The notes under the pieces: generated by a model
Told to the model about the DNA's origin: nothing
The model's database searches: none
What the model saw: the letters and a program-made list of their open reading frames with translations, nothing else
NCBI GenBank assembly: GCA_016875095.1
Contig: VGSG01000032.1
Span: 1 to 40,859, forward strand
Origin: Deltaproteobacteria bacterium
GTDB taxonomy: Bacteria > Desulfobacterota > Desulfomonilia > Desulfomonilales > Desulfomonilaceae
DNA length: 40,859 nt
Direction: 5' to 3'
Shown: piece by piece, positions 28-40,428 of the stretch
How positions within the stretch are numbered: the first letter of the stretch is position 1
Layout of the letters: each line of letters starts with the position of its first letter
Program-made: the position numbers and the translations under genes

Positions 28-53
28 AAGGTGCGAAAAAAATGCGCCTTTTT
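28..53 (+). terminator. Rho-independent terminator of a gene upstream of the window
   Basis: An 8-bp stem (AAGGTGCG at 28-35 with TGCGCCTT at 43-50, including two G-U pairs) encloses a loop of seven A residues and runs into five T residues (49-53). The run of A in the loop and T after the stem is the classic intrinsic-terminator form. It most likely ends a plus-strand gene lying before position 1. No gene is visible between position 1 and 331. Confidence 0.6.
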
Positions 54-114: not shown

Positions 115-130
115 TGGCATATTGTTTGCT
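115..130 (+). promoter_or_regulatory. Sigma-54-type (-24/-12) promoter
   Basis: TGGCATATTGTTTGCT matches the sigma-54 consensus (TGGCAC-N5-TTGC with a following A/T). The invariant GG is at 116-117 and the invariant GC at 128-129, with exactly ten bases between them. The start of transcription would be near 141, leaving a leader of about 190 nt before the small gene at 332. A sigma-54-dependent response regulator is encoded close by (1558-2946) and is a natural candidate activator, but this is inference. Confidence 0.6.
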
Positions 131-331
131 CTTCTGTAATTCAATGCAGCAAAACGAATTGCTAATCCCCTCTTAGCAAAATGCTCAGGGAGAGGGATTA
201 TAACTGGGAGGACCGAGAAGAGACATTTGAGAAGTTATTGCAGGATGTTCTCCGCTTGATAGTCCGTCGGAGCGCACGCGTTCCCTGGGATTAGTCCTGA
301 GCAGAGCGTGGGGAGACAGGAGGGACTCCGA

Positions 332-694
332 ATGTCTGTGGAACGGATTGAAACCTTGATACGCACTGTCCGCGAGGTAATCGAAAGCGATTTTGATATT
401 CGCGTCATTTATCGTTGGAAAAAGGAAGCGCTGGAATACCTTCGGGAGCAGTTAGGCCCGGACCACTATTATACCCGCTGTTTCACCGATCACATGGCAG
501 AGATGGAGCAGCAGCATCTCTTGACCGGCGCCGGCGTGCTCGACGCTGTCCGCGTGCAGATGTCTCAATCCAATAGTAACATGTCAGGGAAACAACGGGG
601 ATATTCGTTCGGACCCGGCCTTTCCGCCGCGAACCGACGCAAAAATGCGCGGTCATCCGAAGAAGAACGCAGAGAAGGAGCCACAATAAGTTGA
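332..694 (+). CDS. Small protein of unknown function behind a sigma-54-type promoter
   Basis: A 120-residue soluble protein that I do not recognise. The ATG at 332 is preferred over an in-frame GTG at 308 because AGGAGGGA at 318-325 lies 6 nt before it. The first 75 or so residues look helical and folded, with a Trp-Lys-Lys motif and a Tyr-Tyr-Thr-Arg-Cys-Phe stretch. The last 45 residues are low in hydrophobics, rich in Ser, Asn, Arg and Glu, and are probably disordered. There is no signal peptide or membrane segment. It stands alone on the plus strand, preceded by the sigma-54-type promoter and followed by a repeat patch, so it is probably a single-gene transcript induced under a specific condition. 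The coding call rests on the ribosome-binding site and amino-acid composition; the function is unknown. Confidence 0.65.
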   Translation: MSVERIETLIRTVREVIESDFDIRVIYRWKKEALEYLREQLGPDHYYTRCFTDHMAEMEQQHLLTGAGVLDAVRVQMSQSNSNMSGKQRGYSFGPGLSAANRRKNARSSEEERREGATIS

Positions 695-921: not shown

Positions 922-1545
922 TTACGCGGTTTCTTGGCGTTTGAGGTCTGTCGGGTGCTCTTTCAGGGCTTTAGTGAGCGCTTCCGCGAGGAAGAGTTCG
1001 CAGTACCCGCACATGTAGTTCAGTTTGTGGTCGAGCTCAATGAGGTTGTGCGACGAGCGCATGACGCATCGGTCAGTGTGGCAATGGGGTATGTTGAAGG
1101 TGTGGCCGATCTCGTGGATAGCCACCTTCACCGCGCGCTCGAGAAAATGTTCGCGGGAAACAGTTTGGTTGCCGGTTCCTGCCCAAAGCCTGAATGAAGA
1201 CATAACCGCGGAAACGCCGTTCATGTATGCTTCGCCGAACACATAGGTAAGGATTGGGTTCGCGAGATCGTAAGTGGTGACTCCAATGACTTTGAGGTAT
1301 CCGTCGGCGTAAATCTCCGCCAGGCGCTTGATAATTGCCATTGCATTGTATTGGCCTCTGGAGGCCATGTAACTCTCTTCGGGAAGCGGGATGGCGGATT
1401 TTAAGTCCACCGGGAGCCTAAGCACGCCCTGGAGAGAGTCTGCCACGACTTGTAACAGACCGCTGTCCGAGTCTCCCAGGGGAATGACCGCAATGATGGC
1501 TTGAGTCCGCGAGACCACAGACTCTCTTTTTTTGGACTTGTCCAT
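922..1545 (-). CDS. amzA: Archaemetzincin-type zinc metalloprotease
   Basis: A 207-residue cytoplasmic protein of the archaelysin family, whose members are probable zinc peptidases. The zinc motif is at residues 144-154 (HEIGHTFNIPH), giving His144, His148 and His154 as ligands and Glu145 as catalytic base. Four cysteines follow in the family's own pattern (Cys155, Cys160, Cys179, Cys182), expected to hold a second zinc, and Met162 lies between them. The glycine usual in the metzincin motif (third residue after the second His) is Asn151 here. No signal peptide is visible. The ATG at 1545 lies 12 nt after the stop of the sigma-54 regulator gene, so the two are almost certainly co-transcribed with the kinase gene. 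The natural substrates of this family are unknown; a link to signal-driven proteolysis is inference from context. Confidence 0.85.
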   Translation of the reverse strand: MDKSKKRESVVSRTQAIIAVIPLGDSDSGLLQVVADSLQGVLRLPVDLKSAIPLPEESYMASRGQYNAMAIIKRLAEIYADGYLKVIGVTTYDLANPILTYVFGEAYMNGVSAVMSSFRLWAGTGNQTVSREHFLERAVKVAIHEIGHTFNIPHCHTDRCVMRSSHNLIELDHKLNYMCGYCELFLAEALTKALKEHPTDLKRQETA

Positions 1546-1557
1546 CCGTGGCCTGCC

Positions 1558-2946
1558 TCACGCCCTTTCAGGCGTGGTCGATAATTCCTGTGAGGCGCGT
1601 TCCAGCCCATATCTGCGGATCTTCTTGTGGAGAGTGGTTCGGTCAACCTGCAGAATCTTTGCGGCCCGGCTGATGTTCCAGTCTTCCTGGTCGAGGACTC
1701 TTCTGATGTGAGCAATTTCAGCCGCTTCCAGGGTCAACGCCGCGCTTTCGCGCGGGGCGCAAATCACGTCCGCTTTGAGGTACGAAAACGCGTCCGGGCC
1801 TATTATTGTCTTGCGCGCGGTGACTACTGCGCGTTCCACCACGTTCTCCAGCTCTCTGATGTTTCCCGGCCAGTCATATTCCACTAGGATTTGCATAGCT
1901 TCGTCGGTGATGGAGTCCACATTGCGATTGGTTTCCTGAGCGAAATTCTTGATGAAATGCCGTACAAGCAGTGGTATGTCTTCTCGGCGTTCCCTCAGTG
2001 GGGGCACCCGCAGGGTGATCACGTTGATGCGATAGTAAAAGTCCTGTCTGAAATTTCCCTTGGCCACTTCGTCGTTGAGATCCCGGTGCGTCGCGCTGAT
2101 AAGCCTGAAATCCGCCTTGATCGGCGCTACTCCGCCCACCCGGAAGAAGGTCTTATCCTGCAAGACTCGGAGCAGATCCACCTGCATTTTGACGCTGACT
2201 TCTCCCACTTCGTCTAAGAAGAGGGTGCCACCTTCGGCGACTTCAATCAGGCCCTTTTTGGGTCGAATCGCGCCGGTGAATGAGCCTTTTTCGAACCCGA
2301 AAATTTCGGCTTCCATCAAGGATTCCGGGATGGCCCCGCAGTTGATGGGAACAAAGGGCCCGCCCAGGCGGTTGCTGTTCGCGTGGATGGCACGCGCGAT
2401 AAGCTCTTTTCCCGTGCCCGTCTCTCCCAGGATGAGCACCGACGTATCACTGGCTGCGATTTCGACGATTTGCTCGAAGAGCTCCAACATGCCCTTGGAT
2501 TGGCCGATGATTTCGTCCGGGCCTCCCCAACAGCGGCTCACCTGGCTTTGGAGGTACTGCTTTTCTTCGAGCAGCCGCTTGTGCTCCAGCAGTTTGGCCA
2601 CCAAAAGGCTCAATCCTTCCGGGTCAAAGGGCTTGACCAGGAAATCGTTCGCGCCGAGCTTCATGGCTTCCACCGCGTACTCCACCGTGCCGTACGCGGT
2701 GATGATAACCACCACCGTAGTGGGATAGGCTTGACGCACCCGCTCCAGCAGCCCAAAACCGCCCATGCCCGGCATCTTGATGTCTACGAAGAGGATGTCG
2801 TACAAGTTCTGCTGCATCAGGTCCAGGGCTTGTTCGCCCGATTCCGCCCTGTCTACTACGGCAGCTTCTTTTTCCAGCCACGCGGCAAGGGATTCCCGCA
2901 CAATAAGCTCGTCATCGACCACCATGAATCTGTGTTTGTGAGCCAT
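1558..2946 (-). CDS. Sigma-54-dependent response regulator (NtrC family)
   Basis: A 462-residue DNA-binding activator that opens sigma-54 promoters when phosphorylated. Domains in order: receiver (about 5-120; acidic pair Asp11/Asp12, phosphoacceptor Asp55, Thr83, Lys105), AAA+ sigma-54 interaction domain (about 145-375; Walker A GETGTGKE at 174-181, sigma-54 contact loop GSFTGA at 221-226, Walker B TLFLDE at 241-246), and a Fis-type helix-turn-helix (about 412-450). The contact loop has Ser in place of the first Ala of GAFTGA. The ATG at 2946 is chosen because the receiver domain begins there and GGAGGGG lies about 11 nt upstream; an in-frame ATG 90 nt earlier would add a tail unlike any receiver. 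It follows the kinase gene by 181 bp and precedes the protease gene by 12 nt. Target promoters may include the one at 115-130. Confidence 0.93.
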   Translation of the reverse strand: MAHKHRFMVVDDELIVRESLAAWLEKEAAVVDRAESGEQALDLMQQNLYDILFVDIKMPGMGGFGLLERVRQAYPTTVVVIITAYGTVEYAVEAMKLGANDFLVKPFDPEGLSLLVAKLLEHKRLLEEKQYLQSQVSRCWGGPDEIIGQSKGMLELFEQIVEIAASDTSVLILGETGTGKELIARAIHANSNRLGGPFVPINCGAIPESLMEAEIFGFEKGSFTGAIRPKKGLIEVAEGGTLFLDEVGEVSVKMQVDLLRVLQDKTFFRVGGVAPIKADFRLISATHRDLNDEVAKGNFRQDFYYRINVITLRVPPLRERREDIPLLVRHFIKNFAQETNRNVDSITDEAMQILVEYDWPGNIRELENVVERAVVTARKTIIGPDAFSYLKADVICAPRESAALTLEAAEIAHIRRVLDQEDWNISRAAKILQVDRTTLHKKIRRYGLERASQELSTTPERA

Positions 2947-3127: not shown

Positions 3128-4732
3128 TTACGTCGCTCGTCTCGCATCCTTCATGTGGCCTTGGGTTTCACCCGAAACCCTGCCGGTGTCAGCGGTGGGG
3201 AGAGTGAGAATGAATGCGGCCCCTTTTCCTTCGGAGCTCTCCACTTCCACAGTCCCTCCGTGCTGCGAGATAATGCCGAACAGCACACTTAGGCCCAATC
3301 CCACGCCCTTTTCGTCGGCCTTAGTGCTGAAAAACGGTTCGAAAATGTTGTGTTGAATATCTTTGGGCACACCCGCGCCCGTGTCTTCGACGCGTATCCT
3401 CATACGTTTCGAATCCGAGAGCGCTTCGCCGCGAATGGTGATAGTTCCCCCATTGGGCATAGCCTCAATGGCATTGAGCGTCACGTTCAGGAGGCCCTGC
3501 TTGATCTGGTCCCGATCGCCGTATATCTTGGGAAGATCTTCCGCGAGTTCCAGACGAAGAGAAACCTGCTGGAGCTCCATACGATTGCCGAGCAGGAGGG
3601 CAATCTGATCCAGCACCGGAGCGAGACTGAACGAGGACGCCTTGAGCTCGCTCTGACGGGAGAAGGAGAGGAGATTGCGGAGAATTCGCCCGCAACGCGC
3701 GGATTCGCCGGCAATGAGATCCAGGTACGCGCCGAACTGCTCCATATCCTTTGGTGAAAGCGACCCGTCGTCCAGCTTCTTACGCATCAACTTCGCAAAG
3801 GCGAGGATGCCCTGAATGGGATTATTGATCTCATGCACGGCCGCGGCGGCGAGTTTACCCAGGGCGACCAGCTTGTCCTGCTGGAGGAAGTGGGTGAAGT
3901 TCTCCTTTATGTTCTGAGCCTGACGGTCCAGGACAATATTCAACTGGGAAGTAATGTCCCGCCAGATGATGAGCGCGGCCTTTTCCCCCGTATCCGTCGA
4001 GGGTAATGGATGCCCGCTCACGCTGAAATACCGAACAGCGTCATTCTCAGCGGGTTCTTCTTTGACCGTGTGCACCGACTTACCTGTCCGGAAGACCTCT
4101 CGGGCCAAGCACGTTTCCCGTGACATGTTGCACATCTCCACACAGTCCCTCATGACCCAGTGACACGGCTTGTTCAAACATTGGTGTCGGGCAAGCCCGG
4201 ACCTCTCTTGAAGCGAACTGCTGATCTCCAGCACGTTCAAGTCTTCATCAACGATTATGAGGCCGGCGCCGGAGCCGGACAGGAGCGTTTCCTTGATGAA
4301 TTCGACGCTTTCAAGCCGGTTGCGCGCGGCGTTTAGTTGGCGCATCGCATCCTTGTGCGATTGCAGTATCCTCAAAGCGAATGAATCCAAAACCCGCGTT
4401 CCATCAGGCGCGATCCGTGCGAGCCTCAGAGCGAGGTTGGTATCCTGCGCGGTCACAATAATCAGGTCCGGTGGGTCCGACCTCAGGAGTTGTTCAAACA
4501 GGCGCAATCCTTGACCTTCGGAGTCGCCGCCGTTGATATGGTCCAGGAAGTCCGCGGCTCGGTCAATAATCCCCAGAAGAGTAACTCCATATCCCGCGGT
4601 CAGTAGCGATTCGAGAATATTGGCGCTTTCGGCGACAGCCTCGCAACCACCTACAATAAGCACTCGCAAGGAATGGGCTAGAGCGATATCGCGACGGTTT
4701 GCGTCTTTGTCCTCAGCGGCGTTCTTTCCCAT
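3128..4732 (-). CDS. Sensor histidine kinase with a cysteine-rich PAS region
   Basis: A 534-residue kinase without clear membrane segments, so probably cytoplasmic. Residues 20-130 resemble a receiver-like alpha/beta fold but I see no clear phosphoacceptor. Residues 140-265 form a PAS domain holding five cysteines within 24 residues (Cys185, Cys190, Cys197, Cys201, Cys208). The dimerisation/phosphotransfer domain carries His300 in AAVHEINNP. The ATPase domain follows (N-box Asn420, G1 box DTGAGV at 450-455, G2 box GVGLGL at 476-481). It is first in the minus-strand group with the sigma-54 regulator and is its likely partner. The cysteine cluster could bind a metal, an iron-sulfur cluster or act as a thiol switch; cysteine-bearing PAS domains are frequent in sulfate reducers, but the signal here is unknown. 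Confidence 0.9.
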   Translation of the reverse strand: MGKNAAEDKDANRRDIALAHSLRVLIVGGCEAVAESANILESLLTAGYGVTLLGIIDRAADFLDHINGGDSEGQGLRLFEQLLRSDPPDLIIVTAQDTNLALRLARIAPDGTRVLDSFALRILQSHKDAMRQLNAARNRLESVEFIKETLLSGSGAGLIIVDEDLNVLEISSSLQERSGLARHQCLNKPCHWVMRDCVEMCNMSRETCLAREVFRTGKSVHTVKEEPAENDAVRYFSVSGHPLPSTDTGEKAALIIWRDITSQLNIVLDRQAQNIKENFTHFLQQDKLVALGKLAAAAVHEINNPIQGILAFAKLMRKKLDDGSLSPKDMEQFGAYLDLIAGESARCGRILRNLLSFSRQSELKASSFSLAPVLDQIALLLGNRMELQQVSLRLELAEDLPKIYGDRDQIKQGLLNVTLNAIEAMPNGGTITIRGEALSDSKRMRIRVEDTGAGVPKDIQHNIFEPFFSTKADEKGVGLGLSVLFGIISQHGGTVEVESSEGKGAAFILTLPTADTGRVSGETQGHMKDARRAT

Positions 4733-4890: not shown

Positions 4891-4919
4891 TCGCCATTTC
4901 AGTCATCTCATGGTATACA
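4891..4919 (+). promoter_or_regulatory. Possible sigma-70 promoter of the APS kinase fusion gene
   Basis: TCGCCA (4891-4896, four of six matches to TTGACA) is separated by 17 bp from TATACA (4914-4919, close to TATAAT). Transcription would start near 4926, some 40 nt before the ATG at 4967. Only moderate similarity. Confidence 0.3.
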
Positions 4920-4966
4920 GATGCTTCCGGAACGCTCGTGGGCGCGCTTTTTGCGGGAGACAACGA

Positions 4967-7078
4967 ATGAAATGGCATAACGGCAAGACCATCTGGTTTA
5001 CCGGGCTTTCCGGATCGGGCAAGTCTACTCTCGCCTCCACGCTCAAGACTATCCTGGAATCAAGGCGTATCCCTGTGGTGCTCCTCGACGGGGACGTGTT
5101 ACGCAGCGGACTTAACCGTGACTTGGGTTTCACTGCTATGGACAGGGCCGAGAATATTCGCCGCGCCGGTGAAGTAGCTAAAATCCTTTCCGATGCGGGT
5201 CACACCGTGGTGGCTGCGTTCATCACGCCTTACGAGAGTCTCCGTCAGGCTGTCAGGGGTCTTTTCGAACCCGGCCGGTACGTTGAGATCTATCTTGATT
5301 GCTCTGTGGAGGTCTGCGAAAGCCGCGATCCCAAGGGCCTTTACTGCCGAGCCCGCGCGGGCGAGATACCGGAATTCACCGGTGTTTCCGCTCCATTCGA
5401 GCCGCCCGGGTCTCCGGATCTCGTGGTGCCGACAGGGTCCCAGACGGTGGAAGAGTCCCTCGCCGATGTGCTGAGCCACCTTGAGGCGCGGTTTGTCGAT
5501 CTGACCTGCCGGAGCTATGCATCGATCGGTCGCGGCCCCACCGGACGGCCGGGGAGAGTGGCGGTGATCGGACTTGACGGAGTTCCGCCTGCGCTGGTCT
5601 TTGACCGGGCCGGATCCGATCTGCACACGCTGCGAGCGTTAATGGAACATGGAGTATGGGGTCCTCTCAGATCCACTGATCCGCCCATTACAGTGCCGGC
5701 TTGGACATCCATGACCACGGGTAAGGACCCTGGGGAACTCGGTTTGTACGGGTTTCGCAATAGGCGGGATTATGATTATCGGGGTCTGGTGACCGCAAAT
5801 GCAGCGCAGGTGGAGGCGCGTCGCGTCTGGGATTACCTGGACGAAGCCGGTAAGACGTCAATCCTGCTTGGTATCCCGCAAACCTATCCACCTCGGCCAC
5901 ATCGGGGGATCACCATTTCCGGCTTCCTGGCGCCGGAGATCCACGGGCCCTTCACATTTCCTGAAGAAGTGGCCGCGGAGCTCCAGGAGGTCACGGGAGG
6001 CCGTTACCGGACTGATGTGGAAGGCTTCCGCACCAGGACAAAAGACCGCTTGCTCGAAGACCTGTACTCCATGGTGGATGCCCGCTTTCAAGCAGCCGGT
6101 CATCTCCTGATACACAAGCCTTGGGATTTCTTCATGATGGTCGAAATGGCCACAGACCGATTGCACCATGCCTTTTGGAAGGACTGCAATCCTGGCCACC
6201 CCCTCTTTCGCGCAGGCAATCCTCATGAATATACTATACGAGATTTTTATGCGTATCTGGACAAACGCCTCGGCTCGCTTCTGGCGCTGCTGGATGACGA
6301 CACAACCGTGTTGGTGGTGTCCGATCACGGGACCCGCAACAATTTGGGGGGAGTCCTGATCAACCAGTGGTTGGTGAACAATGGTTTCCTGGTTCTCAGG
6401 AACCCTTCGGACCAGCAGACGGATCTCAAACCCGAGATGGTCGATTGGGAGCGCACAAGGGCCTGGAGCGACGGGGGTTATTACGCTCGCATCTTTCTCA
6501 ATGTCAAAGGGCGGGAGCCGTCCGGGATCATCGATCGTTCGGAGTACGAGGCGGTTCGCACGGAACTGGCCGGGTTGCTTCGGGCCATTCCCGACGAAAC
6601 GGGTAGATCGATGGCCAACCAGGTGCTCAGGCCCGAGGAGATCTATCAGGCCTGCAACAATGTTCCGCCCGATCTGATTGTCTATTTCGACGATCTGAAT
6701 CGCCGTTCGCTCGGAATGGTAGGCGCCGCGCAGGTCTCGACCACCCTGGATACCGATACTCCGGACGGCGCGAACCACGATCCCGTGGGGATCTTCGTCT
6801 GCGCCAGGATGGGGGAGCTGCGCCGAGGTATTCACAAGGGTCGTCGCGTGGAAGGGGCTTCCGTGCTGGACATCACTCCAACAATCCTACATGAGTTTGG
6901 ACTGACGGCGCCTGAAGACCTGTGCGGAAGTGACCTTGTGGCCGATCGACCGGCCCTCAAACACCGGCATGTTTCGCGCTGCGAAGCGCGCTCGACTTCG
7001 CTTGAGCGCCGTTCCGGGTACACTTCCGAAGAAGAAGAGCTGATCAAGAAACGACTTGTGGACCTTGGCTACATCTAA
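4967..7078 (+). CDS. APS kinase fused to an alkaline-phosphatase-type phosphodiesterase
   Basis: A 703-residue two-domain cytoplasmic protein. Residues 5-175 are an adenylylsulfate kinase (CysC) domain that would phosphorylate APS to PAPS: P-loop GLSGSGKST (13-21), the LDGDxxRxGLNxDLGF region (40-55) and the KGLYxRARAGEIPEFTG region (123-139) are intact. The serine of the usual ISPY motif, the phospho-acceptor in E. coli CysC, is Thr87. Residues 195-660 belong to the alkaline phosphatase superfamily (type I phosphodiesterase/nucleotide pyrophosphatase), with a full set of expected metal and nucleophile residues: Asp204, Thr247, Asp397, His401, Asp453, His454 and His604. The ATG at 4967 has GGGAG upstream and begins the CysC fold; an in-frame ATG at 4910 is less likely. 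The tail (about 687-703) is a charged Glu-rich helix ending in DLGYI. The second domain's substrate is unknown; a sulfo- or phospho-ester, or PAPS itself, is possible. Confidence 0.88.
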   Translation: MKWHNGKTIWFTGLSGSGKSTLASTLKTILESRRIPVVLLDGDVLRSGLNRDLGFTAMDRAENIRRAGEVAKILSDAGHTVVAAFITPYESLRQAVRGLFEPGRYVEIYLDCSVEVCESRDPKGLYCRARAGEIPEFTGVSAPFEPPGSPDLVVPTGSQTVEESLADVLSHLEARFVDLTCRSYASIGRGPTGRPGRVAVIGLDGVPPALVFDRAGSDLHTLRALMEHGVWGPLRSTDPPITVPAWTSMTTGKDPGELGLYGFRNRRDYDYRGLVTANAAQVEARRVWDYLDEAGKTSILLGIPQTYPPRPHRGITISGFLAPEIHGPFTFPEEVAAELQEVTGGRYRTDVEGFRTRTKDRLLEDLYSMVDARFQAAGHLLIHKPWDFFMMVEMATDRLHHAFWKDCNPGHPLFRAGNPHEYTIRDFYAYLDKRLGSLLALLDDDTTVLVVSDHGTRNNLGGVLINQWLVNNGFLVLRNPSDQQTDLKPEMVDWERTRAWSDGGYYARIFLNVKGREPSGIIDRSEYEAVRTELAGLLRAIPDETGRSMANQVLRPEEIYQACNNVPPDLIVYFDDLNRRSLGMVGAAQVSTTLDTDTPDGANHDPVGIFVCARMGELRRGIHKGRRVEGASVLDITPTILHEFGLTAPEDLCGSDLVADRPALKHRHVSRCEARSTSLERRSGYTSEEEELIKKRLVDLGYI

Positions 7079-40119: not shown

Positions 40120-40428
40120 ATGGGTGGACACACCGACATATCCAAACTTCTGAAACGCAAATTCGATCCGGTTTCGGACTGGCGTCCTGTCGGACCTCAA
40201 GCGGAGAAGGGTTCCAAGCTCAAATCCGCCGTGTCGGACACGCTCGAAGAGGCTCACAAGATCAAAGACTATGTTGAGAAGGCCATAGAGCCGCTTGCCG
40301 ACGATGCTAAAGCGCGGATCAGAGAAGCCTCTGCGATGTTGGTAGATGTGGCGGGGAAGTCCTCGAAAGAGGCGCGTAAGTTGCTGGCAAAGACCCTCAA
40401 GGGGCTGGCCAAGAAAATAGAGCCTTAG
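40120..40428 (+). CDS. Small helical protein of unknown function
   Basis: A 102-residue protein that I do not recognise. AGGAG lies about 8 nt before the ATG, so the start is well supported. After a short N-terminal part (MGGHTDISKLLKRKFDPVSD), residues 30-100 form one or two long amphipathic helices rich in Lys, Ala, Glu and Leu, like phasin- or LEA-type surface-binding proteins, though no specific family is clear. There is no signal peptide and no cysteine. It follows the L7/L12-like membrane protein gene by 129 bp. Its stop codon TAG is the first base triplet of a copy of the TAGTATGCGCTCYG motif. Confidence 0.7.
   Translation: MGGHTDISKLLKRKFDPVSDWRPVGPQAEKGSKLKSAVSDTLEEAHKIKDYVEKAIEPLADDAKARIREASAMLVDVAGKSSKEARKLLAKTLKGLAKKIEP

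Follow-up and report, generated by a model that had tools for sequence, protein, structure and literature searches.

The stretch of DNA analysed here (the window, 40,859 nt; G000:C32:1-40859, with G000 denoting the window's own genome) starts at base 1 of its contig, which leaves 114 nt of readable DNA 5' of a putative sigma-54 promoter and 331 nt before the short gene behind it. The features of this end of the window are as follows:

32-47, forward strand: TGCGAAAAAAATGCGC, a putative enhancer to which an activator could bind, located 83 nt before the -24 box
68-103, no strand assigned: inverted repeat GTCGCGA-N22-TCGCGAC with two TCGCGA hexamers, from a pattern search
115-130, forward strand: very probable sigma-54 -24/-12 promoter TGGCATATTGTTTGCT, based on sequence, weighted score, genome scan, family-wide enrichment and the relative G007:C71
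141-331, forward strand: predicted untranslated leader of ~190 nt, its start placed from the promoter
318-324, forward strand: Shine-Dalgarno-like AGGAGGG, read from the sequence, seven bases ahead of the ATG
332-694, forward strand: open reading frame (ATG at 332, end at 694) for a small helical protein of 120 aa, with four predicted helices across residues 3-83 and a disordered tail (ORF call, homologue search, profile and AlphaFold2 model)
922-1545, reverse strand: archaemetzincin-like metalloprotease (Pfam Peptidase_M54, 5.7e-18), a convergent neighbour outside the unit
1558-2946, reverse strand: sigma-54 response regulator with receiver domain, GSFTGA loop and HTH (Pfam), convergent to the small gene
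3128-4732, reverse strand: PAS histidine kinase (Pfam), presumed partner of the 1558-2946 regulator

The first-pass annotation had placed a sigma-54 consensus at 115-130, ahead of an undescribed small gene. Indeed, TGGCATATTGTTTGCT carries GG and GC with the 10-nt spacing, and its flanks are near the sigma-54 consensus. On both strands of the window, the pattern TGGCAYN6TGCW matched once, where 0.29 matches were expected in shuffles and 27 of 100 shuffles contained at least one. The weighted consensus score of the site (19.5 of 22) was tied by an unrelated place at 40370-40385, and five further places scored 18.5-19.0. The window by itself is therefore no proof of a promoter; the argument is carried by sequence evidence from the genome and the family. 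In the 4.7-Mb genome from which the window comes, TGGCAYRN5TGCW had 28 matches compared with 13 for a reversed control pattern, and all three family genes of this genome were preceded by one of the 28. By our own arithmetic, ~0.004 sites would be expected by placement alone within 400 nt before the three genes, and three were observed. The genome also encodes rpoN (PF04552 match, 8.9e-62). We consider the -24/-12 site at 115-130 very probably functional, and the claim of a sigma-54 promoter ahead of the small gene is supported by these comparisons, in which promoter activity is read from sequence.

A lineage-specific family of small proteins

The window protein gave no match to Pfam or NCBIfam at E<=1 and none in PADLOC, and its best E value in PHROGs was 0.07. 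This is in keeping with its earlier description as a 120-residue protein of no known family; the protein is no orphan, however, as it belongs to a lineage-specific family. When 60 genomes were searched with the window protein alone, 15 proved to encode homologues, among them its own genome, which has two paralogues; all 15 belong to one taxonomic family, probably the Desulfomonilaceae. A profile was built from 26 members, with the window protein among its rows and its homologues first found from that protein alone; it retrieved 63 homologous places, spread over 16 of the taxonomic family's 18 genomes, and beyond that family just matches that were weak and partial. Residues W29 and G42 are invariant and L9, F21, D22 and H45 nearly so, a pattern that the window protein fits. 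Its closest relative, at G007:C71, is 53% identical across residues 6-86. A Pfam search over the 26 members returned only four families, all at E 0.038 or worse, and a profile search of solved structures returned nothing below E 0.11. On this sequence and model evidence, the small gene encodes a member of a helical protein family that had not been classified before, whose short proteins are specific to one group of relatives of sulfate reducers and are predicted to form four helices.

An AlphaFold2 model from five sequences predicted helices at residues 3-18, 23-41, 46-54 and 60-83, with pLDDT block means of 86-95 across residues 1-80 and a low-confidence tail. Foldseek with this model gave nothing below E 0.66, and structural comparison recovered generic bundles only (HPt domains, FliS and FAT, Z 8-9). 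These share the predicted up-down four-helix arrangement but no sequence family match, and Z values of this size are unspecific for helical bundles. The nearly invariant H45, together with HPt entries among the structural matches, had suggested an HPt-like phosphorelay role. This role was dropped, because the Pfam matches of the 26 members at E<=1 included no HPt model and H45 precedes a short helix; the comparison with one HPt chain (Z 8.7) was tied with those of unrelated bundles. No catalytic signature was seen among the Pfam and NCBIfam family matches for the small protein.

Helical N-terminal parts resembling the small family were found by weak profile matches in two larger proteins from other genomes of the phylum, a TIR protein (L126, E 1.6e-4) and a 281-aa protein (L122, E 4.2e-6). 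There the stretch is part of a larger protein, whereas here it is free-standing, and the match is too weak to settle common descent. Because these weakly similar stretches are N-terminal in a TIR protein and a 281-aa protein, and because ankyrin-type genes adjoin some copies of the small gene, the small protein would most likely be a compact helical protein-interaction module, made only when a sensor fires. The TIR-domain protein L126 itself, with its similar N-terminal helical stretch, matches PADLOC TIR-TM.

Sigma-54 promoters and PAS activators around the family

The sigma-54 promoter is a trait of the small-gene family, albeit not a universal one. All but one of the 63 family places were fetched (a 25-residue fragment was left out), and 61 of the 62 had at least 150 nt upstream. 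Within 400 nt before the start of these 61, sites scoring at least 18.5 of 22 were present in 24, sites scoring at least 21 in 14 and perfect sites in 4. The corresponding counts were 1, 0 and 0 on the antisense strand of the same stretches and 2, 1 and 0 upstream of 117 other ORFs in the family loci, and shuffling of the 61 stretches gave means of 2.24, 0.04 and 0.02. The 24 sites are not independent: some belong to orthologues, and in two cases (G014:C162:693 and G016:C63:3825) a second gene shares its promoter with the one ahead of it. The -24/-12 element is thus conserved in relatives at the level of the family (24 of 61) and in the closest relative, G007:C71, whose promoter TGGCATGGGCATTGCT scores 20.5 of 22.

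The other 37 of the 61 members have no site of at least 18.5. In a tree of 59 rows (three of the 62 were too short, and the columns are too few for dating when the promoter was gained), two subclades, with 10 and 9 rows, were devoid of sites and a third, with six rows, had a single doubtful one; the site at G004:C10 was counted as doubtful because it lies inside a neighbouring reading frame. Among the remaining 34 rows, a core group defined after the sites were seen, 23 have a site of their own. For three more of the 34 (G001:C151, G007:C41 and G008:C269), which have no near site, a sigma-54 site is located 685-1085 nt before the small gene, behind an activator and with an ankyrin-type gene between. 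The G008 ankyrin-type gene matches Pfam Ank at 6.4e-30 and, used as a query, retrieved those at the other two loci.

The usual neighbour of the small family is an activator of the PAS-AAA-HTH type and not the response regulator found in the window. Upstream of 13 family genes, on the same strand, we found 11 distinct activator (EBP) genes, one of which precedes three family genes in a row; an ankyrin-type gene lies between in 3 of the 11 cases. Three of these activators were scanned for domains, and all were PAS-AAA-HTH proteins, two of them with a receiver domain as well. The EBP clade occupies at least 140 places in 17 of the 18 genomes (at most 96 candidates were scored per genome in several genomes). 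G005, which we take to be Desulfomonile tiedjei, has 22 clade activators, but the small gene has only two relatives there, both distant. Ankyrin-type genes between the sigma-54 site of a PAS activator and a small-family gene were noted at L159, L202 and L073. Upstream of 37897 in G011:C125 (L064), activator remnants in several pieces precede a family gene with a sigma-54 site, and this is probably a decayed cassette.

The DNA behind the activators was examined for 86 of the 140 clade EBPs, those in the eight genomes with a completeness of at least 90% and a contamination of at most 5%; the other 54 were excluded. A sigma-54 site of at least 18.5 was present within 500 nt behind the stop codon in 52 of the 86, compared with 3 of 86 on the antisense strand and 6 of 77 at 1000-1500 nt downstream; 34 of the 86 had no such site behind them. 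The position is narrow, with 32 of the 42 sites of at least 19.5 sitting 177-240 nt behind the stop codon. In the window's own genome, all seven clade EBPs have a site behind them versus 3 of 13 other EBPs tested (5 of 18 non-clade matches were partial and were not used). The small protein is encoded behind 7 of the 86. Ten target ORFs were scanned, taken from 10 of the 52 site-bearing loci as the longest ORF starting within 900 nt, which is not proven to be the first gene. Three found no match in Pfam, and the others included a cytochrome bd oxidase, a flavin oxidoreductase, MFS and TRAP-type transport proteins, a diguanylate cyclase and a redoxin.

Searched for shared motifs, 19 small-gene promoters yielded the palindrome TGTCCGA-N3-TCGGACA, with the best sites often near -125 and -190. 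Its log-likelihood was 63.9-64.1, versus 22.5-35.4 in 20 shuffles at equal search effort, and 36 EBP-downstream promoters without a small gene gave a related palindrome (62.2-63.2 versus 27.5-36.7 in 15 shuffles). A motif-free palindrome test gave modest support for a position at -126 (6 of 41 at -122 to -112) and none for -190 (2 of 31 at -186 to -176). We set aside a further cluster of palindromes at -220, since at several loci it coincides with the end of the EBP reading frame or lies close to it.

An activator gene with a sigma-54 promoter close by is also a feature of the Desulfovibrio vulgaris sigma-54 regulons, for which the published account (PMC4641369) describes promoters adjoining EBP genes, a few of them downstream (DVU0569, and ncRNAs after DVU0653 and DVU0679). 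The arrangement described here differs in that one PAS clade has been multiplied (at least 140 places in 17 genomes), that a site often follows its stop codon at ~200 nt, and that the targets repeatedly include members of an unclassified family of small proteins. Literature searches on sigma-54 and EBPs in Desulfovibrio and Desulfomonile, with subscription papers mostly outside their reach and no family name to query, listed no paper whose title or abstract opening describes the small family or the repeated arrangement. By relative EBP number, the D. vulgaris study places D. tiedjei and Desulfomicrobium baculatum ahead of D. vulgaris, which comes third (PMC4641369). The repeated activator-plus-promoter arrangement may help to explain why D. 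tiedjei ranks among the most EBP-rich genomes relative to size. An isolated promoter call thereby becomes a regulon that can be tested, built on a shared switch of a protein family not classified before, and G005 offers a system open to cultivation in which to study how so many paralogous activators avoid cross-talk.

Control of the window copy

No clade EBP gene was seen beside the small gene in the window, where the contig starts 331 nt before the gene, or within ~5 kb of it at G007:C71. The usual palindrome positions, -125 and -190, fall beyond the contig start in the window, and G007:C71 has no family palindrome at -126. All seven clade EBPs of the window's genome have other sequence behind them for ~1.5 kb and not the window gene, and the activator of the window copy is therefore probably encoded elsewhere.

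The 16-mer TGCGAAAAAAATGCGC at 32-47 is a better candidate for an enhancer than the TCGCGA pair. Its only other exact copy in the genome lies 123 nt before another sigma-54 site (C5:23468); a third copy, which has two mismatches, is followed by no good sigma-54 site. The chance of one random copy falling in such a position is ~0.0004, for a single pair of enhancer-sharing promoters found after the fact, and a longer alignment of the window and C5 stretches was equalled by 1 of 200 shuffles. No gene on the same strand directly follows the C5 site (G000:C5:23468-23483, L248), and inspection by eye showed a GC hairpin with seven T ~40-70 nt on. It is possible that C5:23468 drives a small RNA that shares the window's 16-mer upstream.

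Behind the window promoter, GCTAATCCCCTCTTAGC at 161-177 is common to G007:C71 with one mismatch (GCTAATNCCCTCTTAGC there), 30 nt behind the promoter in the window and 32 nt in G007:C71. A hairpin was predicted at 163-200 (z -3.77). The idea of a structured leader was dropped, as an Rfam scan of the window gave no match and the hairpin is not kept in G007:C71 (z +1.27).

The window pair of regulator (1558-2946) and kinase (3128-4732) is of the NtrC type, with AtoSC and ZraSR the closest NCBIfam models; its matches are below the family cut-offs, and it has no conserved link to the small gene. The first-pass annotation had noted a sigma-54 response regulator nearby, which was confirmed ~0.9 kb from the small gene, and had proposed that the local two-component system controls this gene. 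The distribution of the pair does not support such control. Relatives of the kinase occur in 7 of the 17 other genomes of the taxonomic family, and the regulator (71-80% identical) adjoins it in all seven. Within the assembled contigs, several of them short, a family gene was near the pair in none of the seven: the kinase contig had no small-family match in six, and in G005 the two lie on the same chromosome at least 1.7 Mb apart. The 16 kb surrounding G007:C71 (~5 kb upstream and 10 kb downstream) contained neither the kinase or regulator nor either type of activator.

The TCGCGA pair had likewise been singled out as part of a larger inverted repeat. The repeat is present and unusual: GTCGCGA-N22-TCGCGAC matched once in the window and never in 100 shuffles, for a pattern picked after being seen. 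The hexamers, at 69-74 and 97-102, are not enriched in the window (17 versus 21.6 expected), and the pair is not conserved. Among 30 family loci the window alone has two TCGCGA upstream, and the upstream stretch of G007:C71 has none at all. The pair was dropped as a family enhancer because the other 29 loci are without it.

Alternatives and the proposed switch

It is improbable that the TCGCGA palindromes serve the 1558-2946 regulator as sites for activating the small gene. The regulator is by domain content a genuine sigma-54 activator at a short distance, and a paired inverted repeat of this kind is unlikely by chance. The small gene and the regulator are, however, separate and convergent genes, and the pair is conserved in seven other genomes away from the family, as described above. 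The repeat arms begin 47 and 18 nt before the -24 box, nearer than usual enhancers, and they are not shared with relatives. G007:C71 keeps its promoter with no kinase-regulator pair nearby. A chance match at 115-130, with the small gene transcribed from another promoter, is very unlikely: it would account for the tied weighted score elsewhere in the window and for the 37 of 61 family places without a site, yet three sites were observed before three family genes where ~0.004 were expected, and the site is retained in G007:C71.

A third alternative, in which the ORF matters less and the sigma-54 promoter chiefly yields a regulated leader or a small RNA with a regulatory role, also has little probability. 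Leaders in the family are long and differ widely in length (29 to 322 nt), the D. vulgaris study reports EBP genes followed by sigma-54-driven ncRNAs (PMC4641369), and the C5:23468 site, with no gene directly behind it, has its GC hairpin and seven T. On the other hand, the ORF is conserved as a protein in many paralogues whereas the leaders differ, Rfam had no match in the window and the leader hairpin is not predicted in G007:C71. At C5, a terminator scan missed the hairpin (0 found), and the fold of the stretch favours another structure.

Compared with these alternatives, we consider it probable that the window gene is a member of the lineage-specific four-helix family, switched by sigma-54 through an activator that is typically a PAS sensor-activator rather than the nearby response regulator. 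In such a switch, sigma-54 holoenzyme would wait in a closed complex at 115-130 while the activator senses a signal through its PAS or receiver domains. After the signal, the EBP bound upstream would contact the holoenzyme by DNA looping and open the complex, and the transcript would comprise a leader of ~190 nt followed by the coding sequence of one small helical protein. In a typical cassette, the PAS activator gene would precede the promoter in the same orientation, and palindromic sites would lie in the interval that separates its stop codon from the promoter. The window copy is apparently solitary, and an activator made elsewhere would perhaps act through TGCGAAAAAAATGCGC at 32-47.

A broader picture is speculative and, taken as a whole, rather unlikely to be right. 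Here, the Desulfomonilaceae would have multiplied a PAS activator with private palindromes and its own sigma-54 promoter ~200 nt behind, which captured many targets, one of them, recurrently, the small protein; as an adaptor induced by the signal, it would work with the sensor or an ankyrin-repeat partner, or feed back on either.

Three further observations concern the window around the unit. The metalloprotease gene at 922-1545 lies directly behind the response regulator gene on the same strand, and its product scores 143.1 bits against NCBIfam NF033823, whose cut-off is 145. At 4910-7078 an APS kinase is fused to a type I phosphodiesterase/nucleotide pyrophosphatase domain. The intergenic stretch at 750-840 looks by eye like a dispersed repeat (GAAGCAATC, GCGCATGGCCATGCGC).
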